From: an uncultured Paracoccaceae bacterium
GTDB lineage: Bacteria > Pseudomonadota > Alphaproteobacteria > Rhodobacterales > Rhodobacteraceae
DNA length: 64,000 nucleotides
Assembly: GCA_947487205.1 (NCBI GenBank)
Contig: CANKVU010000011.1
Span: 62,001-126,000 of the forward strand
Direction of reading: 5' to 3'
Below, piece after piece: positions 5,456-52,594 of the stretch. The notes beneath the pieces were generated by a model, which was given only the letters and a program-made list of their open reading frames with translations, searched no databases and was not told the DNA's origin. Numbering within the stretch: position 1 is the stretch's first letter; the number at the start of each line of letters is the position of its first letter. The position numbers and the translations under genes are program-made.

Positions 5456-6142
5456 ATGGCCTGGATGAAGACAGAGTCCGCCACCACGCAAGCGAGCTTC
5501 GAGGACGAGGTGTTCTTCTCGCTACGCCGCCAGCGCAGCGTCGCTTGGACCGTCGCCACCCTGAGCCTGGGCGTGGCCCTGGCCTCGGTCGGAGCCATGG
5601 TCGCCATGCTGCCGCTCAAGGAGATCCGCCCCTACGTGGTCATGGTGGATCGCAGCACGGGCGAGTCCGAACAGGTGGTCGCGACGCGGCCCACGAGCCT
5701 GTCCGACCAGGTAGCCGTTCTGGAGGCGGAGCTGGTCCGCTACGTCACCAACCGCGAGACCTACGATCCTGCCGACAACAGCGAGCGCATCCCGCTCGTC
5801 AACGCCATGTCGGTCGGCCAGGCGCAGGAGAGCCTCCGTGCGGTATGGAACTCGGACTCCGAGAGCTACCCGCCGGAACGCTATGGCCGGGAGGCCCGGA
5901 TCACCGTCCGCATCCGCTCGATCTCGGTCCTGGGCGACAACACGGCCCAGGTCCGGTTCGTGCGCCGCCTCGAACGGTCGGGGCAACCCGCCATCGAACG
6001 GGACTTCGTGGCGACGGTCGGCTTCGAGTTCCGGCCGCGCACGGAGCGCAATCTGCAACAGGTCTGGGAGAACCCTTTGGGCTTCACCGTGACCAGCTAC
6101 CGCGTCGATGCGGAAACCCTGAGCCCCCGGGAGACGAACTGA
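5456..6142 (+). CDS. virB8: VirB8 inner-membrane assembly factor
   Basis: This 228-residue protein has a short cytoplasmic N-terminus, a single membrane helix at about residues 29-52, and a periplasmic domain of about 170 residues. The latter fits the NTF2-like VirB8 domain, with a typical PYVVMVD strand after the helix. VirB8 is a bitopic nucleation factor that links VirB6, VirB9 and VirB10. The start follows an AGGAG-type site upstream of 5456. The stop overlaps the virB9 start in TGATG. Confidence 0.9.
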   Translation: MAWMKTESATTQASFEDEVFFSLRRQRSVAWTVATLSLGVALASVGAMVAMLPLKEIRPYVVMVDRSTGESEQVVATRPTSLSDQVAVLEAELVRYVTNRETYDPADNSERIPLVNAMSVGQAQESLRAVWNSDSESYPPERYGREARITVRIRSISVLGDNTAQVRFVRRLERSGQPAIERDFVATVGFEFRPRTERNLQQVWENPLGFTVTSYRVDAETLSPRETN

Positions 6143-6894
6143 TGCGCCTCGCCCTCGCCGCCCTCGTCTGCACCGTGATCGGTTCGGCCGCCTCCGCCGA
6201 GACCTCCGCGCGACCCTACCCCGAAGATGCCCGGATCCGGCAATACACCTACGACGACCATCAGGTGTACCAGCTCCCGACCTACCTGCGCTACATCACC
6301 GCGATCGAGTTCCCGGCTGGCGAGACCATCGACAGCGTCCAGATCGGGGACAGCGCCTCCTGGGAGATCGTCCGCCTCGACCGGGGCAATGTCCTGACGA
6401 TCAAGCCCGTGATCGACGGCGCCTACAGCAACATGAACGTCTACACGAACGCGCGGGCCTATTCCTTCGATGTGCGCTCCGGCGAAGCGGGCGCGGGATC
6501 CAAGAGCCCCGGCTATCGCGTGAGCTTCCGCTATCCCGGCGAGGAAGCCGCCGCCCGCTCGGCCGAGTTGAAGCGCGAGGCGCGGATCAAGGACTTCGAC
6601 TACTACGTCGCCGGCGAGCCGACGAGCTTCCGCCCCTACCGGGTCTATGACGACGGTCAGCGCACCTACTTCCTCTTCGACGGCGCCGCGCCCCGGCCGT
6701 CGATCTTCGCGGCGGACGCGCAAGGCCGCGAGGCCATCGTCAATAGCCGGCAGGAGGGCAACATGGTCGTGGTGGAGCGCACCTCGCCCTACTGGACCCT
6801 GCGGCTCGGGGACGAGGAGCTGTGCATCGCCCATGCCGACGTGATCCGCGACGTGCCCGGCGGCCGGCACGCGCCCCGGGTGGAGGGCTACTGA
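6142..6894 (+). CDS. virB9: VirB9 outer-membrane complex protein
   Basis: The protein has 250 residues with a signal peptide of about 19 residues (cleavage after SAASA). The beta-rich VirB9/TrbG domain follows, including the segment VYQLPTYLRYITAIEFPAGE. With VirB10 it forms the ring through the periplasm and outer membrane. The ATG at 6142 sits inside the virB8 stop; the longer open frame upstream in the same phase lies within virB8 and is spurious. The stop overlaps the virB10 ATG. Confidence 0.93.
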   Translation: MRLALAALVCTVIGSAASAETSARPYPEDARIRQYTYDDHQVYQLPTYLRYITAIEFPAGETIDSVQIGDSASWEIVRLDRGNVLTIKPVIDGAYSNMNVYTNARAYSFDVRSGEAGAGSKSPGYRVSFRYPGEEAAARSAELKREARIKDFDYYVAGEPTSFRPYRVYDDGQRTYFLFDGAAPRPSIFAADAQGREAIVNSRQEGNMVVVERTSPYWTLRLGDEELCIAHADVIRDVPGGRHAPRVEGY

Positions 6895-8225
6895 TGAGTG
6901 ATCAGGCGACCAGCGAGCCGGGCGAGGCAGTCGCAAACGCCCGCGCCGAGTACCTGAATGGGGGAGGAAGCAACGTCGCCAGCAAACTTGCCGGCGCGGT
7001 GCTTGTTGCGACCTGCATCGGCTTTGCCGCCTTCGCCTTCGCGCCCGGCGCCATCCAGGAGATGCTCACGAGCGGATCGTCGGAAAGCGAAGACATGCAG
7101 GAGACGGTCACCGCCGATCCGGGCATCGACACGGAGTTCACCGACCCACAGCCTCTCGAAACCGAGCCCGTGGAAACGGCCGATCCGTTCCCCGAGGCGG
7201 CGCCGGAGACCGGCCCCTCCCCGGCGGAGCAGCGGATCGCGGCTCTTGAGCAAATGGTCGACGACCTCGAAAGCAGGCTGGATAGTGACACGGGCGGTGA
7301 CGGCGATCTCGATGCGGCACTGGAACAGCAGCGCAAGGAGTTCGCCGCCGAGCGGGAGGCAATGCAAGAGCAGATCGACGCGCTGCGCAATCGCCCGATG
7401 CAGCTTCGCGAGGCTAGTGTCATCCCCGGCCTGGGCGGCGGCGATGGCGAGACCGATGAAGAGCGCCGGGCAAGGGAGCGCCTGGAAGAGGAACGCGCCC
7501 GCCGCGCGGCGATCCGCGAGGAACAGATCAACTCCAAGGGCGTGGTGATCGACGGGGCCTCGAACGTGCGTGGCTCCGGCGGCAATGCCGCGGGCGGTCG
7601 CAACCTCAGCGACCGGGAACAGTTCATGGCCGATGCGTCAAGCCAGGCGCATGAGACGGCGCAGGCCGGTCGCATCCCGCAGCCCGGCCGGACCATCGTG
7701 CAGGGCACGGTGCTGCAGGCCACCCTCGAGACGGCGGTGAGTTCCGAGCTTCCGGGGGTCATGCGCGCCGTGGTGGCGCGGGACGTCCATTCCTATGACG
7801 GTGCGAACGTCCTTCTGCCGAAGGGCACGCGGCTGATCGGGGAATACAACTCGGACGTCTCGGTTGTGCAGGGCCGCGTCCAGATGGCCTGGAGCCGGGC
7901 GATCACGCCCACCGGCGTCAGCGTCGAGCTGGGCGGTTACGGCGCCGACCGGCTCGGACGCTCGGGCCAGACGGGCTTTGTCGACAGTCGCTTCCGCGCC
8001 CGGTTCGGCTCGGCCGCGCTGATCTCCCTGATCGGGGCGGGCCCGCAGGTCGTCATCAACGAGGATGCCGGCGAGAACCAACAGGACATTGCCGACGACG
8101 TGGGCGGGGATCTCGAACGGGCCTCCCAGGGCGTGATGGAGGATTACCTCTCGGCCGGTCCGGTCATCTACGTCGATCAGGGGACCGAGCTGACGGTCTT
8201 CGTTAACAGGGATTTATTGTTCTGA
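6894..8225 (+). CDS. virB10: VirB10 / TrbI envelope-spanning protein
   Basis: The protein has 443 residues: a cytoplasmic N-terminus, one membrane helix at about residues 32-51, an acidic Pro/Glu-rich spacer, a coiled-coil region around 105-200, and the TrbI/VirB10 beta-barrel domain from about 235 to the end (GTVLQATLETAVSSELPG, LLPKGTRLIGEYN). VirB10 spans both membranes and senses ATP use by VirB4 and VirB11. It starts on the ATG overlapping the virB9 stop. Confidence 0.95.
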   Translation: MSDQATSEPGEAVANARAEYLNGGGSNVASKLAGAVLVATCIGFAAFAFAPGAIQEMLTSGSSESEDMQETVTADPGIDTEFTDPQPLETEPVETADPFPEAAPETGPSPAEQRIAALEQMVDDLESRLDSDTGGDGDLDAALEQQRKEFAAEREAMQEQIDALRNRPMQLREASVIPGLGGGDGETDEERRARERLEEERARRAAIREEQINSKGVVIDGASNVRGSGGNAAGGRNLSDREQFMADASSQAHETAQAGRIPQPGRTIVQGTVLQATLETAVSSELPGVMRAVVARDVHSYDGANVLLPKGTRLIGEYNSDVSVVQGRVQMAWSRAITPTGVSVELGGYGADRLGRSGQTGFVDSRFRARFGSAALISLIGAGPQVVINEDAGENQQDIADDVGGDLERASQGVMEDYLSAGPVIYVDQGTELTVFVNRDLLF

Positions 8226-9226
8226 GGAACGAGATTCCCCGCTCCCATGCCGAGCAGGGGCTCGGCCCCCTGCGGGGTCTTCTGACCTCCGAGGACGTGA
8301 ACGAGGTCGTCATCAACCCCGATGGCAGTGTCTGGGTCGAATATGCCCGGCAGGAACACATGGCCCGCTGGGACGGGGACATCCCCGCCTCCCGCCTGCA
8401 AACGCTGGGCAACCACCTGGCCGGCGAGACGAAGAACCAGCTCGGCCCGAAGCATCCTATCGTCTCGGGCCGGATCCTCGTCTTCGGCCAGTCCATGCGG
8501 GTGCAGATCATCGTGCCGCCCGCGATCGGGAGCGGCATCTCCGTCTCGATCCGAAAGTATGTCGGCCGCGTGCTCGACGTGGGCGAGGTCAGCTTCCTGG
8601 GCGGCCAGTCCGTCGACGTGGATGCGGAACGCCGGCACCGCCTCGAAGAGCTGCGCGGGTTCGCCCATGCGGGCGACCTGCAAGCCCTGCTCCGCCGGGC
8701 GGTGGACGAACGGCTGAACATGCTCGTCTCGGGCGGCACCTCCTCGGGCAAGACGACGCTCGCCCGCGCGATCCTGGCGATGAGCGACCGGGCCGAACGC
8801 ATGGTAACGATTGAGGATGCCCCGGAATTGCACCTTCCGCATGAGAACACCGTCTCCCTGATCGCGGACCGGCGGGAGGGGTCGGAAAGGTCCCCTGCCC
8901 TACTGCTCGAAAGCACGCTCAGGATGCGGCCCGATCGCCTGATCCTCGGTGAGATCCGGGGCGTCGAAGCCTTCAACTTCCTCGAGGCGATCAACACCGG
9001 CCATCCCGGGTCGATCAGCACGATCCACGCCGACAGCCCGAAGCTGGCGCTGGAACGCCTGGCGATGATGGTGCTGCGGGCGGGTCTGAACCAGACGCGG
9101 GCCGATGTGGTCGAGTATGCCACGCGGACGATCGACCTCATCGTACAGGTCGGCCGCCGCGGCGGTGAACGTGGCGTGGTGCAGGTCTACATGCCGGCGC
9201 TCGAAGCGGAGTGGGCCGCGTCTTGA
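8222..9226 (+). CDS. virB11: VirB11 traffic ATPase, unusual start
   Basis: This is the hexameric ATPase of the T4SS. Walker A GGTSSGKTT lies at about residues 171-179, a Walker B-type LILGEIRG follows, and then GHPGSISTIHA, the His-box region of VirB11. In-frame codons upstream of the first GTG (8297) encode a typical VirB11 N-terminus (EQGLGPLRGLL), so the gene must begin near 8216-8222. No ATG, GTG or TTG exists there in this frame, which opens after a TAA at 8204. I place the start at the CTG at 8222, nine bases after AGGGA and overlapping the virB10 stop. ATT at 8216 is an alternative. Confidence 0.9.
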   Translation: MRNEIPRSHAEQGLGPLRGLLTSEDVNEVVINPDGSVWVEYARQEHMARWDGDIPASRLQTLGNHLAGETKNQLGPKHPIVSGRILVFGQSMRVQIIVPPAIGSGISVSIRKYVGRVLDVGEVSFLGGQSVDVDAERRHRLEELRGFAHAGDLQALLRRAVDERLNMLVSGGTSSGKTTLARAILAMSDRAERMVTIEDAPELHLPHENTVSLIADRREGSERSPALLLESTLRMRPDRLILGEIRGVEAFNFLEAINTGHPGSISTIHADSPKLALERLAMMVLRAGLNQTRADVVEYATRTIDLIVQVGRRGGERGVVQVYMPALEAEWAAS

Positions 9227-21374: not shown

Positions 21375-22442
21375 CTAAGGCATGTCGGCCTCCTGATCCT
21401 CGAAGAGGGGAAGGATCTCATCGCCCTCGTGCAGAAGGTTTGCGAGGGCCTGTCCGGGCGCCAGCCGTACGGTCGGCAAGCCATCCTGCCGGTCCTCCGG
21501 CAGGAGACAATCGATCGAGGGCAGGCTGCCGGGTCCCTTGGAGACGCGCAGGTAGACGTTCTCGAGCCGCGTCTGGCCATCGAGGGGATGGAAGCCGTCG
21601 GCGGCGCGCTTGCAAAGCTCCAAGGATACCAGACGGGACATGTCGGGACTGGCGGAGATCGCGGACATCGCGTTCTTTAGTGTCCTGGACTTGAACGAGC
21701 GCAGGTGGGCGCTGATCGGCACGCGGCGCCTGAGATCGTCGATCTGCATGTAGACGTCTTCACCCCGCGCATAGACAAGCTTGGCCAGGCAGATGTCGAA
21801 GATCCGCGAGATAGACGCGCCGGAGGAGGTGATCGCGCTGAACTGCTGATGGGTCATATCGAACCCTTCGTTCCGCGTGATCCAACTGAACGCATCCTCG
21901 CTGAGCGAGATCTTCAGGCGAACGAGTTCCTTGCCGCGCCCGGTCTGGCGCAGTTCCTCTTCGAAGGCGTCGATCCAGCGGAAATGCCGGCGCCGGGAAG
22001 TTTGCGCATTGACTGCTCGCTCCGCGATGATCCGTGCTGACAGGAGGCGGTTCAGCCGTTCATTGAGGCGACGATAGTCCGCCCCGCCCGCATGGGTTCC
22101 GCTGCCGTTGAGAAGGTCGAGGAGCTCCTGGCGATGAACGAGGATGTGGCGCGTCGGTCTGCCGCCCGACCGGATTACGTCGCGCACATGCGCGGCCAGC
22201 AGGTTAAGGATCTTGCGATCGAGCGCCGTGGGGAGGCGGAACTCCCCATCGCCCGATTGCATGGTGAGGATGCAGCCGTCGACCTCGGTCTGAAAAGATG
22301 TGGCCTCCGCCTGCTCCGTGAACATCGGAAGCAGCATCGTGTTGAGGTCATTGCGCACGCCGCCAATCGCGCGACGCTCTCCGCGGGAGCCTGCCTGTTC
22401 CGGTCTGCTCTGCTCTCCTGGAGACGGTTTTCTCTCCGTCAT
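21375..22442 (-). CDS. Replication initiator, RPA (PF10134) family
   Basis: The 355-residue protein resembles the replication initiator protein A family frequent on Rhodobacteraceae plasmids (also described as DnaA-like replicases). Recognisable parts are MLLPMFTEQAEATSF, the region TALDRKILNLLAAHVRDVIRSG, and RFFRWIDAFEEE-like and ITSSGASISRIFDICLAKLVYARGE segments. The start at 22442 is supported by AGGAG five bases upstream. Ten 28-bp iterons begin about 240 bases upstream, where such initiators bind, so this is probably the protein that fires the plasmid origin. Confidence 0.85.
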   Translation of the reverse strand: MTERKPSPGEQSRPEQAGSRGERRAIGGVRNDLNTMLLPMFTEQAEATSFQTEVDGCILTMQSGDGEFRLPTALDRKILNLLAAHVRDVIRSGGRPTRHILVHRQELLDLLNGSGTHAGGADYRRLNERLNRLLSARIIAERAVNAQTSRRRHFRWIDAFEEELRQTGRGKELVRLKISLSEDAFSWITRNEGFDMTHQQFSAITSSGASISRIFDICLAKLVYARGEDVYMQIDDLRRRVPISAHLRSFKSRTLKNAMSAISASPDMSRLVSLELCKRAADGFHPLDGQTRLENVYLRVSKGPGSLPSIDCLLPEDRQDGLPTVRLAPGQALANLLHEGDEILPLFEDQEADMP

Positions 22443-23570: not shown

Positions 23571-25889
23571 TCAGTCGTCTGTCCCCGATCTCGGCGCGCA
23601 TGATCCGGAAACCTGCGCCCGGGCCTTCGCGAGTGCGGACAAATCCGCAGGGCCGGCGGACAAATTTGTCCGGAAGGGTAGGGGGCTCGTCGGGGAGCCA
23701 TGGTTGCGCGGCTGATCTCCGTCTCGATCAGCCTTCGCAGCCGCCCCCTTGGCCTCGGGGGAAATCCGTCTCTCGGCCAACTGGGCCAGGATCTCTTCGT
23801 GCAAGTGGCTTTGCGCCACGGTGACGTGGCGGAGCTGCTTCTGGTAGGTCCGGTCCCTCTCAGCCGGCAGTTCCTCGGGGTCCGTCTTGTCCAGCGGGCG
23901 TTCCGATCCATGCTGGTCGTGTCGCCCCACTGGCTCGTCGGCCTCGGGCGGGGCGCGGTCCGCGGTACTCGGCGACGGGTCGTGATCGGTTGCGGCGGAC
24001 GTTTCAGGAGGGGCCTTGGTGACAGTTGACCCGTCCGTCTCGGCTTCCCCACGGACGTCGGCCGAGCTTGGAGTCGCGTCGACATCATGGGTCTCACTTG
24101 CCGGCACGCGCGCCTCGGCCGGCTCAGGCTTCGCCGGTACGCCGGGCACCGGGGGATCGCCCGCCTGCTGGCTGTAGATCCGCCTGAGCACCCGGTCCTC
24201 GAAATAGGTGACGCGATGCGCCAGCACGGGATTGCTGTTCTCGATAAGCGCGATGATCCGCCGGTTCCCGATCATGCGCACCTGTTCCGGCCGCATGAGG
24301 TCGAACCCTTCCTCCTTCTCGCTGTACGAGCTGGTCAGCTCGTTCGAGGACCATTGCGTCGAACGAGAGGCTCGGGTGAACTTTCCGATCGAAGCCGAGA
24401 TATACTCGGGCGTCTCCTTGTCGGAGGGCGACATGAAGATCTGGATGCCGCAGAGCCCCAGGAGTTCGTCGGCACCGTCCCGGCCATAGATCTTCCGGAC
24501 CGAGGCAATTGACTGGATGACGATCATCACACGCCCGCCGAACCCACGGAGCGTCGTCAGGGCGCGGATCAGGATGTCGAGCCTTCCAAGAGATACGAAC
24601 TCGTCCATGAGGAACAGGACCGGGAAGGGCTCGGTCGTCTCCTTCGGCTTGGATTTGCGGGGCCAGCGCAGCCGGTCTCGCATCCCCGACCTGGCTCGTT
24701 TGACAGGCTCGCGCTGTTGCAGGACGCCGATCGCCTGCTGGAACAGGACGCGCACCAAGGGTGCGAGAGGCTCGAGGTCGTTGGGCGAGACGGTGACGTA
24801 GACGGAAGTCCCGCGCCGTCGCATCTCTTCCACGCGGAAATCCGTCGCGGCGGTCGCGACGCGAACGGTCGGATCGGCCCAGAGCCCCAAGCCTCCCTCG
24901 AAGAGCACCGACATGTAGGATGACAGGACCTTGGCCTCGTAGCCGGCATATTGCCGGAGCAGGCCTGCGGCGTCAGCCATTCCGGCCTCCCGCGCCTCTT
25001 CCGCCATCATCGCGAGCGCCTTGAAGCTTCCGCCCTCGCGCGTGAGCGCGTCGTAGATGGCCGCGATTGCCGGCGTTTCCCGGTGGACCATCACGAGGGC
25101 TGTGGCCGCGAAGATATCGCGCGCGCCGCCAAGGAAGTTCTGTCCGTTGCCCCCGATCGTGATCAGGCTCGCGGCGACCCGCTTCGCTTCCTTCAGGCGT
25201 TCCTGCGGCGGCGCTTCGGCAACGTAGTCGAGCGGGTTGTAGCGATGAGTCCGCCCGTCGGCGGCATAGGGATCGAAGCGATAGACCACATCGCCCATGG
25301 CGCGGCGCCTGCGGGCGGTCTTCGCGAAGTTCTCGCCCTTCGGATCGAGGACGATCACCGATCCCCAATAGGTCAGCAGCGTCGGGATGACGATGCCGAC
25401 CCCCTTGCCGGCCCCGGAGGGCCCGTTCACGAGGCAATGGGGAATGGCATCCCGGGCGTCAGGAGTATTCTGGGAGGTCAGAAAGGGCTTTCGGCTGCGC
25501 GGCCCGCCGAGCTTGCCGAGGATCGGTCCGACCAGGCCGCCTTTGCCGGCACGGATCCGGACCGTCATGCCCTGACGCGCCAGTTCGCCGGGCCGCGCCC
25601 ATCTGGCGGAGCCGTGGCTGGTCAAAACCTTCCGGAATCCGAGAACCGGAGCGGCCACGGTCAGGATCGCCGCGACCCCGCTGCCCAGGATCACCGCCGT
25701 CCGAAACGGTTCCCCGAGGGCACCAATCTCATCCGGTGCGAAGGCGAGGATCGTGCCGAAGCCGATTGCCGACACGTCACCGCCCACGACCCAGGTGGCG
25801 TAGGCGCCGGCGACAAGGATCCCTAGCAGCACGCCAAGGACGAGCCCGCACAGCGCCAGCGTGGCGAGATCACGCAGATTCATTGCCAT
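23571..25889 (-). CDS. virD4: VirD4/TraG coupling protein
   Basis: The 772-residue protein has two N-terminal membrane helices (about residues 10-32 and 65-85), Walker A GPSGAGKG at 156-163, IVLDPKGEN, and Walker B VLFLMDEFVSLG. VirD4 is the inner-membrane ATPase that brings the relaxase-DNA complex to the VirB channel. The C-terminal 200 residues are Pro/Glu/Thr-rich and low in complexity. The start at 25889 follows GAGGG at good spacing, 10 bases after the relaxase stop; the longer open frame to 26474 lies inside the relaxase gene. Confidence 0.95.
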   Translation of the reverse strand: MAMNLRDLATLALCGLVLGVLLGILVAGAYATWVVGGDVSAIGFGTILAFAPDEIGALGEPFRTAVILGSGVAAILTVAAPVLGFRKVLTSHGSARWARPGELARQGMTVRIRAGKGGLVGPILGKLGGPRSRKPFLTSQNTPDARDAIPHCLVNGPSGAGKGVGIVIPTLLTYWGSVIVLDPKGENFAKTARRRRAMGDVVYRFDPYAADGRTHRYNPLDYVAEAPPQERLKEAKRVAASLITIGGNGQNFLGGARDIFAATALVMVHRETPAIAAIYDALTREGGSFKALAMMAEEAREAGMADAAGLLRQYAGYEAKVLSSYMSVLFEGGLGLWADPTVRVATAATDFRVEEMRRRGTSVYVTVSPNDLEPLAPLVRVLFQQAIGVLQQREPVKRARSGMRDRLRWPRKSKPKETTEPFPVLFLMDEFVSLGRLDILIRALTTLRGFGGRVMIVIQSIASVRKIYGRDGADELLGLCGIQIFMSPSDKETPEYISASIGKFTRASRSTQWSSNELTSSYSEKEEGFDLMRPEQVRMIGNRRIIALIENSNPVLAHRVTYFEDRVLRRIYSQQAGDPPVPGVPAKPEPAEARVPASETHDVDATPSSADVRGEAETDGSTVTKAPPETSAATDHDPSPSTADRAPPEADEPVGRHDQHGSERPLDKTDPEELPAERDRTYQKQLRHVTVAQSHLHEEILAQLAERRISPEAKGAAAKADRDGDQPRNHGSPTSPLPFRTNLSAGPADLSALAKARAQVSGSCAPRSGTDD

Positions 25890-25899
25890 GTCTGTCCCT

Positions 25900-27663
25900 C
25901 TAGAGCCCGCGTCCGCCGTCCCGGTCCCGCGCCTCTCGGGCTTCGCGCTCCCGCATCCAGCGCTCCGTCTCGCTTTCCGTCCGGTCCTCTTGTGCAGGGG
26001 CCTCCCGGGCCCCTTCCTGCGCGCGCCGGGTTGGCGCCGGTGCCGTGCGCTGGTCCGGCCAGTCCTGGTTGGCCTCTCCCGTCGGCTCCACTTCGTCGCT
26101 GGTTGCCGCGCGACCCTCTCCCCGGCCTCGGTCGTCCCGAGTCCGGTCGTGCGCGTAGATCCCGCCGATCTCGCCATGCATCTTCGCCAGCGCCGCTTCG
26201 CGCTGAGCAGGCGTTTCCGGCGGCTCGCCGTCTTCGGCCCGCGAGCGCGCCCGCTCGCTCGCCTCGCTCTCGGCGTATCGCCGGGCGAGTCCGACGGAAG
26301 GCGCCCCGCCGGCATACCGCTCGACCGTCGCATCCGCGTCGACCCCGTACCGGGCCGCGACGAGACGAACCTGGGCCTCCGTATCGGCCCTGATCGCCCC
26401 GGCCGATGGGTCAGCCTCGGCAGATGCGGCGAGCCCCCGGTAGCGCCCGCTCGGGTCGGGCTCCCGGTAGTCACTCAGATCGGTTCGTCCCAAGCCCATC
26501 GCCGGGGCCGACTGCGCCTTCAGCTCCGCGATCCGTCGCTCGACCCGGACCCGCTCGGCGCCCGGCTCCAGCTGCGCCGCCGTGCGGTCCAGCATCTCGA
26601 AATTGGCGCGGACCTCTCCGCGCGTCTCGTCGAGCCCCTGGCTCATCCCCTGCATCTCCTGTCCTGCGGCTGGTTTCTCGTAGCTCTGTTCGCACAGGAC
26701 CTTCCCCCGGGCCATGTCGTCCGAGACCCGGCGCAGGAGCGCGGCCTGGTCGGGGGCGTCGCGCTCGACCAGGCGGGCCTCGTGCGCGAAGCGGCGCGCG
26801 TGATGGATCAGCGCTGCCGCTGCGAGGATCGCGCTCTGCCGGGTATGGGCGGGCGCCGCGGCCGCGCGTCCCTCGTCCCGCGCCCGGCGATACTCCGCGT
26901 CCGGCACGGGGCGGTCGTGGAGCGCCCGCTCGTAGCGGTTGGTCGCCTCGAGCTCGATCCCCTCGCGCGCGGCGACGTGGACCAGCGTGGAACGCATGGC
27001 GTCGTAGTTCAGGTCGCTCCGCCGCGAGACTTTCAGCCAGGCCCCGTGATCCAACCCGCGCCGATGGACCACCACATGCATGTGCGGGTGATCGCGATCG
27101 GTGTGGAAGGCGGTGTAGTAGTCGAAGGCGTCGCCCCCGTAGTCCCCGGAGCCGAACAGTTCCTCGGCCCAGGCGCGCCCGGCGCGCTCGGCCGCCGCGT
27201 GGCCCGCTTCCTGCGGGAAGCTGACGATGAAATGCGAGGTCCGGTCCGCCTTCCCGGACCCCTCTGGCGGCATCTGCCAGCCGGCCTCGAGCGCCGCGCG
27301 CTCGTCGGCGTCGATCTCCACGCCCATGTAGCGCTCGGACCGATGCAGCGGCTGCGCGCCGTCGCGCGAGAGATAGGCCATCTGCGCCTTCAGACCGCGC
27401 AGGTCGGAGGCGCCGCCCTTGCGGACCATCTTCACCACCGCTTGCGGGCGAGACCCGGGCCGGAGCGCCCCGCCCAGGCTGCTCGCGGAGCGCCGTGACA
27501 CGTCCTCCCGGTGCTTCGCGGCAAGCCCGCCAGGGACAGTCCTCGGCTTGCGCGCCTGGTCGAAGCCGACCACGGCCCAGTCCTCGCCCATGACGGCCTC
27601 GAGTGCCGAGACGGTCTCCGGCGCGTTGCGGCCCCGCTCGAGAAGATCCGGGACGGCGCTCAT
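25900..27663 (-). CDS. virD2: VirD2-type conjugative relaxase
   Basis: The 587-residue relaxase carries motif I as MAYLSRDG with the candidate nucleophile Tyr97, followed by HRSERYMG as in Agrobacterium VirD2. The metal-binding motif III HTDRDHPHMHVVVH lies at residues 187-200. It would nick oriT and stay bound to the 5' end of the transferred strand. The C-terminal half is charged and helical. The start overlaps the stop of the small upstream relaxosome gene (ATGA), and virD4 follows, so 28136 down to 23571 is one operon. Confidence 0.93.
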   Translation of the reverse strand: MSAVPDLLERGRNAPETVSALEAVMGEDWAVVGFDQARKPRTVPGGLAAKHREDVSRRSASSLGGALRPGSRPQAVVKMVRKGGASDLRGLKAQMAYLSRDGAQPLHRSERYMGVEIDADERAALEAGWQMPPEGSGKADRTSHFIVSFPQEAGHAAAERAGRAWAEELFGSGDYGGDAFDYYTAFHTDRDHPHMHVVVHRRGLDHGAWLKVSRRSDLNYDAMRSTLVHVAAREGIELEATNRYERALHDRPVPDAEYRRARDEGRAAAAPAHTRQSAILAAAALIHHARRFAHEARLVERDAPDQAALLRRVSDDMARGKVLCEQSYEKPAAGQEMQGMSQGLDETRGEVRANFEMLDRTAAQLEPGAERVRVERRIAELKAQSAPAMGLGRTDLSDYREPDPSGRYRGLAASAEADPSAGAIRADTEAQVRLVAARYGVDADATVERYAGGAPSVGLARRYAESEASERARSRAEDGEPPETPAQREAALAKMHGEIGGIYAHDRTRDDRGRGEGRAATSDEVEPTGEANQDWPDQRTAPAPTRRAQEGAREAPAQEDRTESETERWMREREAREARDRDGGRGL

Positions 27664-28136
27664 TCTCCGGCGGCCTTCTCCAGCCGGGCCAGGCCGTCCT
27701 CGCGGCGGGCCGCGAGACTGAGGATGCGCTGCATCTGCGCCTCGACGCGGCTCAGCTCCTTCCCGAGCGCGCGGCGCTCTTCCAGGAAGGCGATGTAATC
27801 GGGATCCCGGGTCCGGTTCGCCGCACGGGCGATCTGGTTCACGTTCCGGGCGATGCCGCCGATCTGCCGCGTGGCCTCGCGCAGCTCCGCGGTGACCGCA
27901 TCATCCACCTCCACGAACCCGGCGATCCGCCGCATCGCGATCCGGAGCGCCTGGCTGCGCGTCATGTCGAGGGCCGCGATCCGTTCATCGAACTCCGCGA
28001 CTTCGGCTTCCGTGGCCCGGATCGAGAAGACCTTGTCGGCCCGCTTGCGGCTCCCGGATGCCTCGGGATCGACCCAGTCGCCGGCCTTCATCCGGCGGCG
28101 CGCCCAATCCGGCGGGCCGGTGTCCTGCGGTGCCAT
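27660..28136 (-). CDS. MobC/VirD1-like relaxosome accessory protein
   Basis: The 158-residue protein resembles MobC-type relaxosome proteins: a ribbon-helix-helix-like part (VFSIRATEAEVAEFDERIAA, SQALRIAMRRIAGF) and the hallmark IARNVNQIARAANR. Such proteins bind near oriT and help the relaxase open the nick region. It is the first gene of the minus-strand transfer operon, starting about 37 bases from the oriT inverted repeat and four bases overlapped with the relaxase gene. Confidence 0.85.
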   Translation of the reverse strand: MAPQDTGPPDWARRRMKAGDWVDPEASGSRKRADKVFSIRATEAEVAEFDERIAALDMTRSQALRIAMRRIAGFVEVDDAVTAELREATRQIGGIARNVNQIARAANRTRDPDYIAFLEERRALGKELSRVEAQMQRILSLAARREDGLARLEKAAGE

Positions 28137-28172
28137 GTCGGGGATCTCCGGCTCGGGGCGGTCTTACTTATG

Positions 28173-28203
28173 GTTGTGTGTTACACAACTATATTTCCTG
28201 CCA
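28173..28203 (+). other. Predicted oriT nick region, T-DNA border-like
   Basis: An inverted repeat GTTGTGT / ACACAAC (28173-28179, 28183-28189, 3-base loop) is followed by ATATTTCCTG|CCA. Bases 28180-28203 match 20 of 24 positions of the Agrobacterium T-DNA border consensus as I recall it (ending TATATCCTGCCA). The nick is predicted between 28200 and 28201 by analogy with IncP and Ti sites. The site lies between the MobC-like gene and the virC1-like gene, the expected place. With this orientation the plus strand from 28201 rightward enters the recipient first. Confidence 0.8.
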
Positions 28204-28809
28204 AGGAACAACCACCCACCGCGTCTTTTTGCGTCTGCAGCATGGACCCATTTGCACCGGCACAAGAGGCCGCGCGGCATGGCGGAACCGTGTTGTCGGT
28301 CAGCAGGGCGGTGGCCCCTGAGGGCCGCTCTGCGGGGCCGTGAGAGGGCGATCGGGCCATCGCGGCACCGCGGGCCGCTCCGGGAAGGGAAAGGCCGGGA
28401 GCGAGCCATTCACGGGGATTTCTTGCTGCGCCTGCTCCATCTGCGTCGGTTGCTCCCTCTGCTAGACCTGAGCCCCGCGCTCGCAATGGTGGCACCGCGC
28501 CTTGTGCGCCGCGCGGTCTTTCTGCGCCGCCGGCTCCATCTGGTAATCATGCTCCACCTGCGCTCAGCGTTGCTGCTGCGCCTTGCGCGCCCCGTGCACT
28601 CCCAGGTCCTGATGCGCGTCCTGCTGCCCTTGATGCCCCTGCGCTCTCTGCGCCACAGGGTGCCTGCGCGCCCCGTGGTCCTGCCGCGCCGGAGACTCTA
28701 GGGCCCGCAGGAGGTCTCGACGCGGGGCATCAGGAACGGGATCTCCGGTCGCCACCCTGCTGGCCGCAGGGCGGGGCACGAGAGGCACCCAGAGGCGAAA
28801 GGGCCATCG
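28204..28809. other. oriT-flanking region without a supported gene
   Basis: A stretch rich in short repeats of CTGCGCC-like sequence runs from about 28420 to 28690. It gives long but compositionally odd open frames (Leu/Arg-rich on plus, Gln/Ala-rich on minus), which I do not accept as genes. The leader of the next gene contains CACCCAGAGGCGAA (28787), which recurs at about 41147. Confidence 0.5.
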
Positions 28810-29553
28810 ATGAAAACGATCACCTTCATGTCGTTCAAGGGCGGGGCCGGGAAATCGACCTCGCTCTATCTCCTGGTCGCGGCCCTGAACGAACGCGGCA
28901 AGCGCGTTGCCGTGATCAACGCCGACCGCAACAACGTGCTGCATGAATGGCGGGACTACGGGCGCGGCTGCGGCACCTGGGACGAGACCATCAAGGTCTC
29001 AAATGCCGTCGACGACGAGGACCTATCGAAGGCAGCCGAAGAAGCCGAAAGCTTCGGGGCCGACTACCTCGTCATCGACACGGCCGGCGGCGGCTCGGAC
29101 ATCAACGATGCCATTCTCTACAACTCGGACATGGTGGTCATCCCGTGCGATCTCGGCCAGCAGGAACTCGACCAGACCCTGCAGACGTTGCAGTACGTCC
29201 AGCAATACCTGGCCGAGACGGGCGGCAACGCCCTCTCGGGCTTCCTGTTGAACCGCGTGCCCCTGTCCAACGACAGGTTCTCGGTCGACGAGGCCGAGTG
29301 CTGGGACGTCGTGAAATCGCTGCCGATCTTCGGGACACGGATCCCGGACGACAAGAGGATCAAGGGGCAAAAGACGAGGGGCCTGATGAACCTCTTCCGG
29401 GATCAACTCGAATCCGCCAAGGCCTCCCGGTTCCGGGCGCCGCATTACACGCGGCTTCTCAGGATCGGCCATGACCTCGTCGACGAGATCGACGCGGCCT
29501 TCGGGGAAATGGAGACCGGTCTCGGTCGCGAGGTGGAACGCGATGCCGTTTAA
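28810..29553 (+). CDS. VirC1-like ParA-family ATPase
   Basis: The 247-residue protein has the deviant Walker A KGGAGKS at residues 10-16 and a Walker B LVIDTAGGG, as in ParA/MinD ATPases. Its place next to a border-like oriT argues for the VirC1 subgroup, which in Agrobacterium binds beside the border and stimulates relaxosome assembly. It is unlikely to be the partition ParA, since a full parAB pair is encoded at 16.1-18.6 kb. It overlaps the next gene by 11 bases. It would be the first gene to enter a recipient. Confidence 0.82.
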   Translation: MKTITFMSFKGGAGKSTSLYLLVAALNERGKRVAVINADRNNVLHEWRDYGRGCGTWDETIKVSNAVDDEDLSKAAEEAESFGADYLVIDTAGGGSDINDAILYNSDMVVIPCDLGQQELDQTLQTLQYVQQYLAETGGNALSGFLLNRVPLSNDRFSVDEAECWDVVKSLPIFGTRIPDDKRIKGQKTRGLMNLFRDQLESAKASRFRAPHYTRLLRIGHDLVDEIDAAFGEMETGLGREVERDAV

Positions 29554-30313
29554 GAAACCCCCGAAAGGCCCCGACCACCTGACGCGGCGGTTCGGCGCCT
29601 CTGCCAAAGACCGTGAGGGTCGCGAGCGCCAAGCGGGAACGTTGATGGCGGAGGGCGAGAAAGCCGCGCAACCGGCAGAGGGCGCCGCGGAACCGACACC
29701 TGCTGCGAACGCACGCGATACCGCGGGGTCGCTGGGCCGGCAAAGACCTGTGGTGTCGAACGCGGAACCTGTCGACGCGTCTTCCCGCACGGTTTCGTCC
29801 ACCGCACCGGTACGGAAAGCTACGTTGGATCATTCGACGCGCGAGCGGACCTCCACGCGGATTGAGGACAGACTAGAACCGATCCCACATGGGCCGGAGC
29901 CGCGCAGGAATGACCCCAGTCCATCTCGAGGGCCTCGAAGCCAAGCGTCTTCTGCGACCAGGGTGGTCGCCAACGGCACCGTCGAGATCACGGGGTATGT
30001 CTACGCTCCGCTGGCGGGCGCGGCGGGCGCGTATGACCAGCTCGTCAGCGCGTACGGGGAAAAGGATGCGCTGCGTTTCGCCTTGAATACCGGTCTCGAA
30101 GACCTTGACCGGACGTTGTCTGCCGGCGCGCCGATCGAACCGATGGAGGGCTATGCCACCAGGAGGGATCGGATCCGGGTCAAGCGCCGGCTGTCGGCAG
30201 ATGCCGCGGACCGGGCCTTGCAGCATATCGATCCGTTCGGGATGCTTTCGCAGTATCCATTCGGCACGCGTCTGTGGAAGGCAGCGCTCGGTCTCTTTCT
30301 GGCCAGGGGCTGA
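29543..30313 (+). CDS. Unknown protein paired with VirC1-like ATPase
   Basis: The 256-residue protein has a disordered, charged N-terminal 145 residues and a compact C-terminal 110 residues (GTVEITGYVYAPL, DALRFALNTGLEDLDRTL, RIRVKRRLSADAADRALQHI). I do not recognise a family. Position after the virC1-like gene, overlapping it, is that of Agrobacterium virC2, whose product is a DNA-binding partner. Size and layout (disordered start, folded end) are compatible, but no virC2 motif was confirmed. The ATG at 29543 lies within the upstream gene; the longer frame from 29471 is not needed. Confidence 0.7.
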   Translation: MPFKKPPKGPDHLTRRFGASAKDREGRERQAGTLMAEGEKAAQPAEGAAEPTPAANARDTAGSLGRQRPVVSNAEPVDASSRTVSSTAPVRKATLDHSTRERTSTRIEDRLEPIPHGPEPRRNDPSPSRGPRSQASSATRVVANGTVEITGYVYAPLAGAAGAYDQLVSAYGEKDALRFALNTGLEDLDRTLSAGAPIEPMEGYATRRDRIRVKRRLSADAADRALQHIDPFGMLSQYPFGTRLWKAALGLFLARG

Positions 30314-48365: not shown

Positions 48366-51300
48366 TCACGCGGCGTCCGTGGCCGCGCGCCCGGCCCGAA
48401 CCCGCTCGATGACCGCGCTGGCCTCCGCGCCCGTGGGCACGAAGACGCGGAGCTGGTGGGCGATGATCTCGGTGAAGCAGCCGGCGGCCTTCAGGCTCGG
48501 CAGCGCGTCGGGGGCGACCCCTTCCAGTTCCAGCCGCCTTGCCCCGGCGACGCGGCGGGCGCGGAGCGTCAGCCCTCGGCCGAGATCGGCGCTGCCCTCC
48601 CCGGAGAGGACCGTCGCCACCAGCTCGTCCGCCGTCTCCGGGGCGGCGCCACTGAAGCGGCCCTTCAGGACGAGGGCCTGGCCGGTGGTGATCGCCCGGC
48701 CGATGAGCGACCCGCGCCCCTCCGGCTCGACCCGCCAGATGCGCTCGTTGTCCGAGGGAATGGATTTCCAGATCGGCAGGAGAAGCCCGGTCAGCAGGAC
48801 GAGGGTCTCGACCTCGACCTTGGGCAGGGCCTCGGACTCCGCATCCCAGAGCGTGATGAACTCTGCCTTGTCGACGGGCTCCCACCGGGAGGCCGCGAAC
48901 GCGTCCTCGGTCAGGGAACTGCGCCCCGTGGGACGGCGCAGGTCGCGCATCTCGGTGAACACGTCATCATCATACACTTGGAAGGCGCGCTTGGAGATAA
49001 GAGCCACCTTGCCCGAGGCCGCGTTCCGCATCGGGCGCAGGCGATACCCGTAGCCCTCCAGGACGTCCGCACCGGACGGGATATGCAGCTCCGTTTCCGT
49101 TTCCAGCGTGACGGTGCGCGTGACCGACCCGCTGCGCGGGCAGGTCCAGATCTCCTCCTCGCCCGTGACGTGGATCCGGTCGGCGCGCAGCGTCTCGATC
49201 CCGACATCGAGCGTGCCTGCCGCGTGTGCCAACTCGGTCTGCGCCTCGATCCGGGCGGTGAAGGCGGAGAAGAGCGCGTTCTGCATCTCGATGGGGAGGG
49301 CGAGAAGCCGGTTCAGGTAGCGCTGGATCGGCGGCAGCTCCTCGAGGAGCACGTCGTCGCCGCCCGTGAGGGGCAGGGCGGTCCAGTCGAGGAAGGTCTC
49401 GTAATCCATCGCCTCGCAAGCGTCAGAGGCCAGTTCCTTGTAATGCGCGACCAGCGCCCGGCGCGCGATGGGGGACTCCAGGTTGTCCGAGGCGCGGAAC
49501 ATGTTCTGGCTGCCGGTCTGGCGCTGGCCGCGCGTCAGCGCGCCGAGCGTGTCGAGGCGCCGCGCGATGGTGGAGGTGAACCGCTTCTCGCCGTGCACGT
49601 CGGTCGTCACGACCCGGAAGAAGGGCGGCTCGACCTGGTTCGAGCGATGCGTCCGCCCGAGGCCCTGGATGGCCGCGTCCGCGCGCCAGCCGGGCTCGAC
49701 GAGGTAGTGCCGGCGCCGCGCCTGGTTCGCGACGCTGCGGGCGGCGTGGTAGGAGCGACCCGTGCCGCCCGCGTCGGAGAAGACGAGGATCGGCTTGGCC
49801 CCCGACATGAAGGCGGCGCTCTCGGCCGAGTTGGCCGATCCCGGCCGCGGCGCGATCTTGATCGTGCCGGAGGCGGTGCGAACCGGGCGCTTGGACCGGC
49901 CCGTCACCTCCGCGATCCGCTCCTCCCCGAAATGCCAGACAAGCTGGTCGAGGACGGACGGGATCGGCGCGATGGTGTAGAGCTCCATCAGCGCCGCCTC
50001 GCGCAGCTCCACCGCCTCGCGGGAGATCACCCGGTTGCCGCCTTCGTCGAGAAGCGGCTGGCTGACGATCTGGCCCTCGATCTCGACGAGCTGTTGCGCC
50101 TCGACGGGGAAGGCGGTCTCCAGCCAGTGCACCACCGCCTCCTTGGGCGTCAGGTGTGCCTCGGTGAGGTCGTCACCCGCTTCCAACCCCTCGATGGCGC
50201 GGTCGAGATGGCTCTCGCCGGTGGAGACGATCTGGATGACCGGCGCCCAGCCCGCCGCGATGTCGGCCTCGACCGCGGCGATCAGGCTCCGGGCCTTGAA
50301 GCCGTTCAGGACGTGGGAGAAGAAGCGCTGCTTCATGCTCTCGAAGCGTGACAGGGCGGAGGCCTTCGCCGCCGAGGCCGTGCGCCCGTCGGGATCCTCG
50401 ATGCTGGTCGCCTCCAGCGCCTTGCGCAGGTTGGCATGGATGACTTTGAACGCGCGGGCGAAGGCGTCGTAAACGCTCCGCTCCGCCTCGGAGAGCCTGT
50501 GGTCGAGGATGTCGTACTCGACGCCCTGGAAGCTCAGGGACCGGGCGAGGTAGAGGCCGAGGGCCTTCAGGTCCCGGGCGACCACCTCCATCGCCGCGAC
50601 GCCGCCCGCCTCCATGGCCGACACGAAGTCCTCGCGCCCGGCGAAGGGATAGTCCTCGCCCGGCCCCCAGAGACCGAGGCGGGTCGCATAGGCGAGATTG
50701 GCGACATTGGTGGCCCCCGTCGCCGAGACGTAGAGCACGCGGGCGCGGGGCAGGGCATGTTGCAGCCGGAGCCCGGCGATGCCCTGCTGCGAGGGCGCGG
50801 CGCCGCGGCCCTCTTTCGATCCGGCGGCGTTCTGCATGGCGTGGGACTCGTCGAAGATCACGGCGCCGTCGAACCCCTTGCCGGCCCAGTCCACGAGCTG
50901 CTGGAGCCGGGTGGTCCCGCCCTTCCCCGTGGCCCGCAGCGTGGCGTAGGTCACGAAGAGGATGCCGCGGGAGAGCGTGATCGGCGCGTCGGGTTTCCAC
51001 TTGTCGATCGACTGGATGTCGGTGGGCGCCCCGCCGAGATCGGTCCAGTCGCGGATCGCGTCCTCGATCAGCGTCTTGGACTTGGAAATCCACACCGCCC
51101 TGGTGCGACCGCAAAGCCAGTTCGACAGGATCACGGACGCCCCCTGGCGACCTTTCCCGACACCGGTCCCGTCGCCGATGAAGAATCCCTGCCGGAAGGC
51201 GACGCCCTCGTCCGGGGCCAGCTCGGTCTCGGTCCAGTCCTCCTTGACCGCGAAGCGCCCTGGAAGGTCGCGGGAATGGGCCTCCTCGGCCATGATGACC

Positions 51301-52556
51301 GCTTCGAGCTGTGCGGCCGACAGCGCGCCCTCGCCGACGAGGCGGGGCGGCAGGACGGGCAGGGCCTTTGGCATGGGCGGCACGACCGCCGCCATGGCCA
51401 CGCTCTCGACGAGAGGCGTGGGGTGCGGCACCGCGCCGGCGATCTCGATCCGCTGCGGGGCGTAGCTGGCATAGATGTCGGAGAGGGCCTTGTTTACGCC
51501 GGGCGTCGCGCGCTCGGCGTAGGCCAGCGGCGTCTCGACAGGGCGGGACCGCGCCGGCTGCGCCGGTGCGGAAGACGGCGCCACCGGGCGCGTGGGCCTT
51601 GCCGGCGCCGCGGCCGCGGGACGGAGCCGGGCGGCCTCGACCGGAAGACGCTCGGGCAGGTCGGACAGGATCGCGTCGAGCGCGGCCTCCAGCCCCTCCA
51701 CCGGGCGCAGGGCGATGCTGCGCTCTCCCTCGGCGCGATCCGCCACGAGAAGCGCCGTCTCCACGTTGGTCCCCATCTTGCCATAGACGGTTCCCGGAAG
51801 GCCGAGATGGAGACGCGGCGTGAGCGTCTCCATGAGCCGGTCCCAGAGCCGGGGCTGGCGGGTGCGGCAGGCGGCATGGGGCAGGATCGCGACGAGCCGT
51901 CCGCCGGGGGCGAGGCGCCTGGCGGCCGAGAGGACGTGGCGCAGCGCGATGGTCGGATCTTCGCGGCCGATGCTCGACGAGAAGGGCGGGTTCATCAGGA
52001 CCACGCTCGCCAAGCGGTCGTCAGTCAGAAGGTCGTCGATATGCTCCGCGTCGTGGCGCGTCGGGCGCTGGCGGAAGAGGAGGTGCAGGAGGGCGGCGCG
52101 GAAGCCGTCGATCTCGTTCAGGAGGAGCTTCGCCCCGGCCATGCGCGCCATGTGGGCGAGCGCCCCGGTCCCGGCCGAGGGCTCCAGCACCACGTCGCCC
52201 GCGCCAATGGACGCGGCCGTGGCTGCCACATGGGCGTAGGGCAGGGGCGTGGAGAACTGCTGGAGGCGGATCTGCGCTTCCGACCGCCGCGTCTCGGTCG
52301 GTCGCTCCCCCGCGGCGGCGGCGAGGCGCGCCAGCCGGGTGCGGGGATCCTCGCCCGCCGGCGCGGCCTCCCGATCGGCGAGGATCGCGGCGGCCTGCAC
52401 CACGTCGTAGGCCCGGCGCCACGACCAGGCGCCCTCCGCATCGCTGCCGCCCGCGGCCGCCGTCAGGCGGGCCGAAACGGTGTTCGTGTCGAGGGGGCCG
52501 GCGGCGAGGTCTTCGCTGAGCTGGCCGAGAAGGCGGTCGAGGTCCTGGCGCGTCAT
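48366..52556 (-). CDS. Methyltransferase-strawberry notch helicase protein
   Basis: The 1396-residue protein has an N-terminal methyltransferase-like domain: motif I VVLEPSAGTGALA and the catalytic-type VVLMNPPFSSS. A Pro/Ala-rich linker follows, then a helicase of the strawberry notch group with Walker A GDGTGVGKGRQ and DEAH-type FDESHAMQNAAG, and the C-terminal helicase half (VFSDAGGTGRSYHAARSVANQARRR, IQGLGRTHRSNQVEPPFF). Similar giant proteins are common on plasmids and phages, where they may protect or modify incoming DNA. The NPPF motif points to N6-adenine or related modification. ATG at 52556 follows AAAGGA. Confidence 0.9.
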   Translation of the reverse strand: MTRQDLDRLLGQLSEDLAAGPLDTNTVSARLTAAAGGSDAEGAWSWRRAYDVVQAAAILADREAAPAGEDPRTRLARLAAAAGERPTETRRSEAQIRLQQFSTPLPYAHVAATAASIGAGDVVLEPSAGTGALAHMARMAGAKLLLNEIDGFRAALLHLLFRQRPTRHDAEHIDDLLTDDRLASVVLMNPPFSSSIGREDPTIALRHVLSAARRLAPGGRLVAILPHAACRTRQPRLWDRLMETLTPRLHLGLPGTVYGKMGTNVETALLVADRAEGERSIALRPVEGLEAALDAILSDLPERLPVEAARLRPAAAAPARPTRPVAPSSAPAQPARSRPVETPLAYAERATPGVNKALSDIYASYAPQRIEIAGAVPHPTPLVESVAMAAVVPPMPKALPVLPPRLVGEGALSAAQLEAVIMAEEAHSRDLPGRFAVKEDWTETELAPDEGVAFRQGFFIGDGTGVGKGRQGASVILSNWLCGRTRAVWISKSKTLIEDAIRDWTDLGGAPTDIQSIDKWKPDAPITLSRGILFVTYATLRATGKGGTTRLQQLVDWAGKGFDGAVIFDESHAMQNAAGSKEGRGAAPSQQGIAGLRLQHALPRARVLYVSATGATNVANLAYATRLGLWGPGEDYPFAGREDFVSAMEAGGVAAMEVVARDLKALGLYLARSLSFQGVEYDILDHRLSEAERSVYDAFARAFKVIHANLRKALEATSIEDPDGRTASAAKASALSRFESMKQRFFSHVLNGFKARSLIAAVEADIAAGWAPVIQIVSTGESHLDRAIEGLEAGDDLTEAHLTPKEAVVHWLETAFPVEAQQLVEIEGQIVSQPLLDEGGNRVISREAVELREAALMELYTIAPIPSVLDQLVWHFGEERIAEVTGRSKRPVRTASGTIKIAPRPGSANSAESAAFMSGAKPILVFSDAGGTGRSYHAARSVANQARRRHYLVEPGWRADAAIQGLGRTHRSNQVEPPFFRVVTTDVHGEKRFTSTIARRLDTLGALTRGQRQTGSQNMFRASDNLESPIARRALVAHYKELASDACEAMDYETFLDWTALPLTGGDDVLLEELPPIQRYLNRLLALPIEMQNALFSAFTARIEAQTELAHAAGTLDVGIETLRADRIHVTGEEEIWTCPRSGSVTRTVTLETETELHIPSGADVLEGYGYRLRPMRNAASGKVALISKRAFQVYDDDVFTEMRDLRRPTGRSSLTEDAFAASRWEPVDKAEFITLWDAESEALPKVEVETLVLLTGLLLPIWKSIPSDNERIWRVEPEGRGSLIGRAITTGQALVLKGRFSGAAPETADELVATVLSGEGSADLGRGLTLRARRVAGARRLELEGVAPDALPSLKAAGCFTEIIAHQLRVFVPTGAEASAVIERVRAGRAATDAA

Positions 52557-52594
52557 CGGGGATCCTTTCCGTGGAGATGAACTGCACACGGAAA

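Follow-up and report, generated by a model that had tools for sequence, protein, structure and literature searches.

A T-DNA border-like sequence between virC1 and virD1 homologues as a probable origin of transfer of marine alphaproteobacterial plasmids

A short sequence resembling a T-DNA border lies between divergent homologues of virC1 and virD1 in the window, a 64,000-nucleotide stretch of contig C11 from an uncultured Paracoccaceae bacterium. Taken as a whole, the site is very probably the origin of transfer (oriT) of a conjugative plasmid, with VirD1/VirD2-type processing and delivery through VirD4 to a VirB system; no nicking or transfer data are available. The sequence match, gene set, conservation, covariation, and relaxase kinship on which this reading rests were observed. 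The source genome is a draft of 82 contigs (99.8% complete).

Sequence of the site and its gene neighborhood

Features of the site and of its surroundings in the window were as follows.
28173 to 28179, plus strand: distal inverted-repeat arm GTTGTGT (from the sequence; equivalent positions covary)
28180 to 28182, plus strand: hairpin loop GTT (from the sequence)
28183 to 28189, plus strand: nic-proximal arm ACACAAC (from the sequence; counterpart of the TGT-bearing half of the border)
28190 to 28203, plus strand: stretch TATATTTCCTGCCA after the proximal arm (from the sequence)
28179 to 28203, minus strand: T-DNA border-like sequence TGGCAGGAAATATAGTTGTGTAACA (17 of 20 specified border positions)
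28164 to 28202, plus strand, the putative nicked strand: probable oriT core, made up of hairpin and nic region (43.7 bits with covariance model R1, of which it is a training member)
between 28200 and 28201, plus strand: predicted nick CCTG^CCA (inferred from the nick position of VirD2/MOBP relaxases, without nicking data)
27660 to 28136, minus strand: virD1 homologue, a VirD1/MobC/NikA-like accessory protein (PF07328, 5.6e-16; Pfam VirD1 and MobC)
25900 to 27663, minus strand: virD2 homologue, a MOBP relaxase (PF03432, 5.4e-11; best NCBIfam model VirD2, 2.7e-51)
23571 to 26474, minus strand: ORF of the virD4 homologue, a coupling protein (PF02534, 5.1e-88; NCBIfam VirD4, 4e-169, 564 bits, cutoff 681)
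28810 to 29553, plus strand: virC1 homologue, a ParA-type ATPase (PF07015 VirC1, 6.5e-45; NCBIfam VirC1, 151 bits, cutoff 313)
29471 to 30313, plus strand: virC2-like gene, only C-terminal domain recognized (NCBIfam VirC2, 1.5e-6, residues 170 to 279, 28 bits, cutoff 255)
5456 to 9223, plus strand: homologues of virB8, virB9 (CagX), virB10 (TrbI), and virB11 (T2SSE) (PF04335, 1.6e-61; PF03524, 4.1e-54; PF03743, 8.3e-49; PF00437, 7.5e-31)
21375 to 22442, minus strand: plasmid replication initiator RepA, RPA family (PF10134, 2.4e-12)

The plus strand from 28173 to 28203 reads GTTGTGT-GTT-ACACAAC-TATATTTCCTG^CCA, where ^ marks the predicted nick; the nick position of VirD2/MOBP relaxases is established. 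The inverted repeat has perfect 7-bp arms and a 3-nucleotide loop, lies 11 nucleotides ahead of the predicted nick, and has a hairpin score exceeding the 99% level for random sequences. On the minus strand, positions 28179 to 28203 equal 17 of the 20 specified bases of TGGCAGGATATATNNNNNTGTAAAC, which we take to be the T-DNA border consensus. This was the sole place in the 64 kb with three or fewer mismatches to that consensus, a level reached by none of 100 dinucleotide shuffles. The original prediction, made from the letters of the window, had described the repeat GTTGTGT/ACACAAC followed by TATATTTCCTGCCA, and those letters were found where it had placed them. Its agreement at 20 of 24 border positions (bases 28180 to 28203) was obtained again in a visual comparison with the nopaline left border, and its location of the site between a MobC-like gene with a VirD2-type relaxase and a VirC1-like ATPase agrees with the Pfam and NCBIfam matches.

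Genes virC1-virC2, running rightward on the plus strand, diverge from virD1-virD2-virD4, running leftward on the minus strand, and the site lies between both groups. The virC2-like gene, virD4, and virB8 to virB11 on the contig are additions to the genes originally named. Scores for PF07328 in the VirD1 homologue (59.3 versus a gathering cutoff of 28.2) and for PF07015 in the VirC1 homologue (153.7 versus 24) were above threshold. The five best NCBIfam models (VirD1, VirD2, VirC1, VirC2, and VirD4) were all under their cutoffs, with 119 bits versus 173 for VirD1, 175.5 bits versus 623 for VirD2 (equivalog NF010437), and VirD4 nearest to its own cutoff; the window proteins are therefore regarded as relatives of the Ti proteins, the same orthology not being shown. 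The VirD2 protein of pRL7 likewise fell under the NF010437 cutoff (274 bits). Catalytic motifs of the window relaxase are intact (motif I tyrosine and HxDxxHPHxH). A Pfam search of the virC2-like gene at 0.001 gave no match. Judged from sequence alone, virD4 probably starts close to 25890, the point from which homology is seen (the window ORF resembles the C23 copy from residue 196 on). Elsewhere in the window, an ORF of 1,407 amino acids (48366 to 52589, minus strand) contains AAA_34 and Strawberry-notch helicase C-terminal domains.

Conservation among related relaxase loci and rhizobial sites

Contig C23 of the same genome carries virC2-virC1, a site, virD1-virD2-virD4, and virB8 to virB11 arranged as on C11, and the window virB8 to virB11 homologues are 79 to 94% identical to the C23 copies. 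The C23 site, TGGCAGGATATATTGTTGTGTAACA, matches 18 of the 20 specified border positions. A relaxase search of genome contigs found four loci only. The relaxase clade to which the window belongs was represented by 16 loci: the window, C23, three further loci (G048, G244, and G544), Haematobacter pOT1-9, two Acuticoccus plasmids, Jiella, Phaeobacter pP92_e, Roseobacter denitrificans pTB1, R. litoralis pROLI81, and four Roseibium/Labrenzia contigs. A border-like nic between divergent virC1 and virD1, in one orientation, was present at all 16 loci examined. Lack of conservation upstream of related relaxase operons had been named beforehand as a refutation of the original prediction, which withstood this check (16 of 16 loci, with a covarying hairpin). 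A virC2 gene was recognized at 14 loci, the exceptions being pP92_e and pTB1, and virD4 was recognized at 15, all but Haematobacter, whose scanned stretch runs out in insertion sequences.

The core hexamer in the window, TTCCTG, is one base off the usual ATCCTG, which is present at the C23 site and at the other clade loci examined except L011, where the core is altered (TGGCTGGATAC). TTCCTG cores are also present at sites of other Rhodobacteraceae relaxases. The ATCCTG hexamer was required in vitro by a VirD2-like relaxase of another organism, according to the part of PMC3772185 that was available. The TTCCTG form could weaken nicking at the window's own copy.

Comparison of 18 sites showed an inverted repeat 5' of the nic, a 3-nucleotide loop, and a nearly constant distance to the nick. 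Hairpin scores exceeded the 95% level of 1,000 random sequences at 17 of these sites; at the exception, L090, seven of eight bases pair in the common register, and a free search favored another pairing. Alignment A2 contained 16 related sequences, picked by nic similarity or neighboring homology and not by hairpin. Paired cells made up 87.5% of its 144 cells, with changes on both sides in six of nine pairs. The covariation score was 0.452, compared to 0.131 (standard deviation, 0.029) in shuffles, none of 500 of which reached the observed value, and slid-partner controls gave no more than 0.175. Related sequences may beat shuffles without structure; slid-partner controls preserve relatedness. 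Two of five measures were weaker (pairs changed on both sides, 15 of 500 shuffles; further pair types, 12 of 500 shuffles), and the outermost pair was weak (7 of 16). The nic half was conserved to the same degree as the hairpin.

An outer inverted repeat of 10 to 14 bp encloses the hairpin and nic in some relatives (L006, 4159 to 4229; L080; L065), and not in the window. Among 17 loci examined, no more than 2% of 200 base shuffles reached the observed outer repeat at six (L006, L080, L064, L065, L066, and L012); 65% of shuffles did so for the window, and the feature was dropped from the claim. Tandem arrays occur in the virC1-virD1 spacers of L006 (3592 to 3918), L042 (5870 to 6054), and L065 (1820 to 2135), with units of 27, 9, and 8/16 bp, respectively, and the window spacer has a mere two-copy trace (28505 to 28542). 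These arrays were rejected as a conserved overdrive-like element, being long in 3 of 11 marine spacers, unlike in their units, and found in none of three rhizobial spacers.

A maximum-likelihood tree built from 46 relaxase domains placed the 16 clade members (support, 91/96) as sister to four rhizobial VirD2 proteins (100/99) from pRL7, p42a, Bradyrhizobium, and Mesorhizobium. The two groups together had a support of 99/98, with other Rhodobacteraceae relaxases outside. The tree is midpoint rooted, and long branches meet in it (p42a, Ruegeria/G043, and the rhizobial rows). What is said here of other relaxase clades is based on 48 of 110 relaxase places, the window and C23 included. At 38 of 44 loci in other clades, the 1.6 kb upstream of the relaxase gene contain a TGGCAGGATAT-like core (at least 9 of 11 bases) that points the same way; three loci have it in the opposite orientation, and Markov-resampled sequence contained it in 110 of 880 cases (12.5%). 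The second halves of these sites differ, and a short hairpin near the register was present in 3 of the 16 sites shown. It is thus widespread for a nic to precede the relaxase operon, with the border-like second half specific to this clade among the loci examined.

No such core was found near virD1 on the four rhizobial plasmids. These carry three, three, three, and four border-like sites (two or fewer mismatches), in one direction per plasmid and away from virD1. The distal arm is absent at this register in 12 of the 13 rhizobial sites, and one p42a site retains 5 bp of it. That p42a site scored 29.7 bits with R1 and the other 12 scored 12.2 to 20.8 bits; marine sites scored 38 to 55.5 bits except L011 (32.0), pTB2 (28.2), and the second site of pCP157_21 (27.6), so the marine and rhizobial ranges touch at the edge. 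The p42a repeats are not presented as new: they were stated to be absent in 2016 (PMC4788154) and reported in 2021 (PMC8554961), where, in the portions of these sources available, five are given; the pattern used here found three. Loci with three or four direct border-like sites include pRL7 (L076, 42000 to 58000), a Mesorhizobium mediterraneum plasmid (L077, 13000 to 25000), and a Bradyrhizobium quebecense plasmid (L078, 122000 to 132761). A RolB family gene lies between two such sites in pRL7 and in the M. mediterraneum plasmid, a T-DNA-like layout.

The number and position of sites bear on whether the window sequence is a real T-DNA border, one of two bounding a plasmid segment meant for a eukaryotic host. 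The sequence match and the VirC1-VirC2-VirD1-VirD2-VirD4-VirB set would suit such a border. The possibility is nevertheless considered very unlikely, because one border-like site each was counted on C11 (a draft contig) and C23, each of six complete marine plasmids has exactly one mismatch-free site, the site is positioned at virC1/virD1, and the distal arm missing from 12 of 13 rhizobial border-like sites is present. The mismatch-free site was beside virD1 in all six marine plasmids, the pattern having been derived from these marine sites; two of the six had one extra match at two mismatches. With a looser pattern, four Roseibium genomes each had three to six matches at one or two mismatches (zero to one for the reversed control), none of which was the site beside virD1, which differs there. 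A VirE2 search of the source genome gave no match; its control matched nowhere either.

Sequence searches and sites without a detected VirD2-type gene

Model R1, run with stricter filters on 394 family genomes, gave six matches at 43.7 to 55.5 bits, all of them training members, followed by scores of 25.0 bits and less, with four matches at 22 to 25 bits. The exact pattern GGCAGGATATATNNNNNNGT gave eight matches in the same genomes, five with a hairpin, and its reversed control gave five. Matches L081, L082, and L085 lacked a hairpin and were taken as chance.

When the 34-nucleotide C23 site was searched against 72,556 plasmids, 105 records matched, from Agrobacterium (86), Rhizobium (16), and Neorhizobium, Allorhizobium, and Sinorhizobium (1 each). 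Among the matches listed (20 of 105), only query positions 12 to 34 were aligned, at 22 of 23 bases and an E value of 0.3 each, a value due to the shortness of the match; the nic and proximal arm were covered and the distal arm was not. The same query read backwards found nothing in this collection. The Agrobacterium sites matched are read as T-DNA borders, with no feature listed there and no Ti DNA compared. The C44 site (described below) matched 16 records, 13 from Agrobacterium (21 of 22 bases in 12) and the others from Palleronia, Acuticoccus, and Haematobacter. A Phaeobacter-type site matched 22 records at an E value of 1, none of them Agrobacterium and 20 of them from alphaproteobacterial genera of this study, and the 34-nucleotide window site matched a single plasmid, from Sinorhizobium meliloti (21 nucleotides; E value, 3). 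These differences indicate that border identity varies between members and that likeness to Agrobacterium is greatest for C23 and C44.

An alternative is chance or a generic MOBP likeness, by which only the nic core of IncP and border sites would be held in common and the rest would be coincidence. The resemblance of the IncP nic to the T-DNA border has reportedly been known since the early 1990s (it is said to have been noted by Waters et al. in 1991). The core at 38 of 44 other-clade loci would fit such a likeness, though the second half differs, as would the single plasmid matched by the window's own site. Coincidence is scarcely credible given that no shuffle equals the whole-site match, that the C23 matches among 72,556 plasmids are all from Rhizobiaceae-type genera with none for the reversed control, and that the clade relaxases adjoin rhizobial VirD2 in the tree. 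A generic core is largely contradicted by the C23 query and its reversed control; the window copy alone would have been insufficient.

Six replicons on which no VirD2-type gene was detected carry sites of the same anatomy: C44 of the source genome, a contig of genome G215, a Palleronia plasmid, R. denitrificans pTB2, R. litoralis pRLO149_63, and Paracoccus pCP157_21. Two of these sites are located as follows.
C44 (L079, G000:C44, 8,197 bases), 2180 to 2218: site next to mazEF-like genes
G215:C18 (L090, 9,003 bases), 1290 to 1328: site within a longer palindrome

C44, which encodes a MobC protein and an MbeA-like relaxase, is probably a circular plasmid, given a 77-nucleotide end repeat, and the site on the 204-kb Palleronia plasmid has a neighborhood like that of C44. 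The 9-kb G215 replicon carries phage capsid, ClpP-like protease, D5-type primase, and Rep genes and may be a phage-plasmid or a satellite. The pTB2 site scored 28.2 bits with R1, and pTB1 of the same strain has both a relaxase and a site. The 3.2-kb pCP157_21 (L102) has two oppositely oriented sites some 100 bp from each other (788 to 825 and 887 to 925).

Searched with the window relaxase, the source genome gave matches on C11 and C23 alone, and neither the G215 genome nor the Palleronia plasmid gave any. PF03432 detected nothing on the Palleronia, pTB2, pRLO149_63, and pCP157_21 replicons and did detect pTB1 and pOT1-9. Other relaxase types on these replicons are not excluded, since PF03432 misses some, such as the MbeA-like relaxase of C44. 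No virC or virD match was found in the six stretches around these sites. MOB-suite typed the Palleronia plasmid, pTB2, pRLO149_63, and pCP157_21 as non-mobilizable; it gave the same call for both Acuticoccus plasmids, Jiella, pP92_e, and pROLI81 despite their VirD2-type genes. Mimic oriTs on plasmids lacking transfer genes are an established idea (see PMC8136818 and PMC11389934).

These replicons show that the site is more than a piece of the virD1 promoter. The hairpin could be the operator or promoter of the virD operon, serving, for example, autoregulation by the VirD1-like protein, with the border match a by-product: the window site lies upstream of virD1 with its end about 43 bp away, and autoregulation at oriT is common among accessory Mob proteins, as is well established. 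This is judged improbable, however, because the nic half is conserved like the hairpin and because six replicons bear the site without a detected VirD2-type gene or a virC or virD match in the stretches. A virD promoter element alone was set aside owing to the latter; dual use as operator and oriT is likely and is compatible with the oriT reading.

Proposed transfer and comparison with known systems

The original prediction that the border/VirD1-VirD2/VirC1 module works as an ordinary plasmid oriT gained support, as single copies, virB genes on the contig, and the six replicons above all fit it. Under the oriT reading, nick position, transfer direction, and protein roles are inferred, as are nicking and mobilization themselves. 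The VirD1-like protein and the VirD2-type relaxase would bind the hairpin with its 3-nucleotide loop and the nic region, and the relaxase, by analogy with VirD2, would cleave between 28200 and 28201 on the plus strand, remaining attached to the 5' end. VirC1/VirC2-like proteins may help the complex to assemble or dock, and VirD4 would pass it to the VirB channel. The strand headed CCAAGG is predicted to lead, so that the recipient would receive the virC1 side early, with virD and virB arriving last.

The growth of T-DNA transfer out of conjugation is textbook knowledge. The site is interpreted as the whole oriT version of the Ti/rhizobial T-DNA border, the latter consisting of the nic plus one hairpin arm, and borders could arise from such an oriT by loss of one arm and multiplication. 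A broader joint proposal, for which the chances are judged to be evenly balanced, is that T-DNA borders descend from a single hairpin-plus-nic oriT in the virC1-virD1 spacer through loss of the distal arm and direct copying around Rhizobiaceae cargo, with marine alphaproteobacterial plasmids keeping the earlier conjugative form, and that the same oriT type is a tag acting in trans, letting pTB2, pRLO149_63, the Palleronia plasmid, the 3-kb Paracoccus plasmid, the 9-kb capsid/Rep replicon, and the 8-kb plasmid of this genome ride VirD2-type conjugation.

VirD2 and VirD4 are named for roseobacter plasmids in PMC4886583 and PMC4511512, and an oriT sequence is not described in the available parts of these papers or of PMC11481893, PMC5513947, and PMC13386836. 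The last, a 2026 study of 153 Sulfitobacter plasmids, classes about 67% as non-mobilizable for lack of mobQ and T4SS genes; neither "oriT" nor "origin of transfer" was found in such main text as was accessible. By title and start of abstract, no border-type oriT in marine plasmids appeared among the matches listed from full-text literature, a collection outside of which most subscription journals fall. The present signature finds candidate oriTs on roseobacter plasmids currently typed as non-mobilizable.

In Helicobacter pylori tfs4, a VirD2-like relaxase has a VirC1-like partner and a putative oriT with an inverted repeat upstream of the virD2-like gene (PMC3772185). That system differs in its 25-bp repeat, TATCCTGC core, and genomic island setting, and no border match past the core is described in the accessible part of that report. 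A right border has served as an engineered oriT, VirD2 and the border moving a plasmid between bacteria; as far as the available text of PMC5985610 goes, this is a laboratory construct and not a natural oriT. The IncP/RP4 MOBP oriT shares with the present site an inverted repeat 5' of the nic, a MOBP-type nick core, and a MOBP relaxase with a three-histidine motif (PMC3772185, in part). Compared to RP4, the ATAT stretch and the arm of the present site are T-DNA border-like. VirC1/VirC2 stand here in place of the RP4 accessory set.

Likeness to Ti/Ri T-DNA borders extends over the nic and proximal arm, where the C23 copy agrees at 22 of 23 bases among the matches listed, and to a homologous VirD1-VirD2-VirC1-VirC2-VirD4-VirB set; virC divergent from virD is also annotated on three rhizobial symbiont plasmids. 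Unlike those borders, the present site is a single copy in the virC1-virD1 spacer with a complete hairpin and no sign of a bounded segment, and its protein homologues lie below the NCBIfam cutoffs. A probable border-like oriT beside relatives of the same processing proteins in marine bacteria hints at the origin of Agrobacterium gene transfer to plants. As a natural site with the full VirC-VirD-VirB set, it offers a living comparison for the change from oriT to border, in which one can ask whether loss of the hairpin arm, duplication, or relocation matters.
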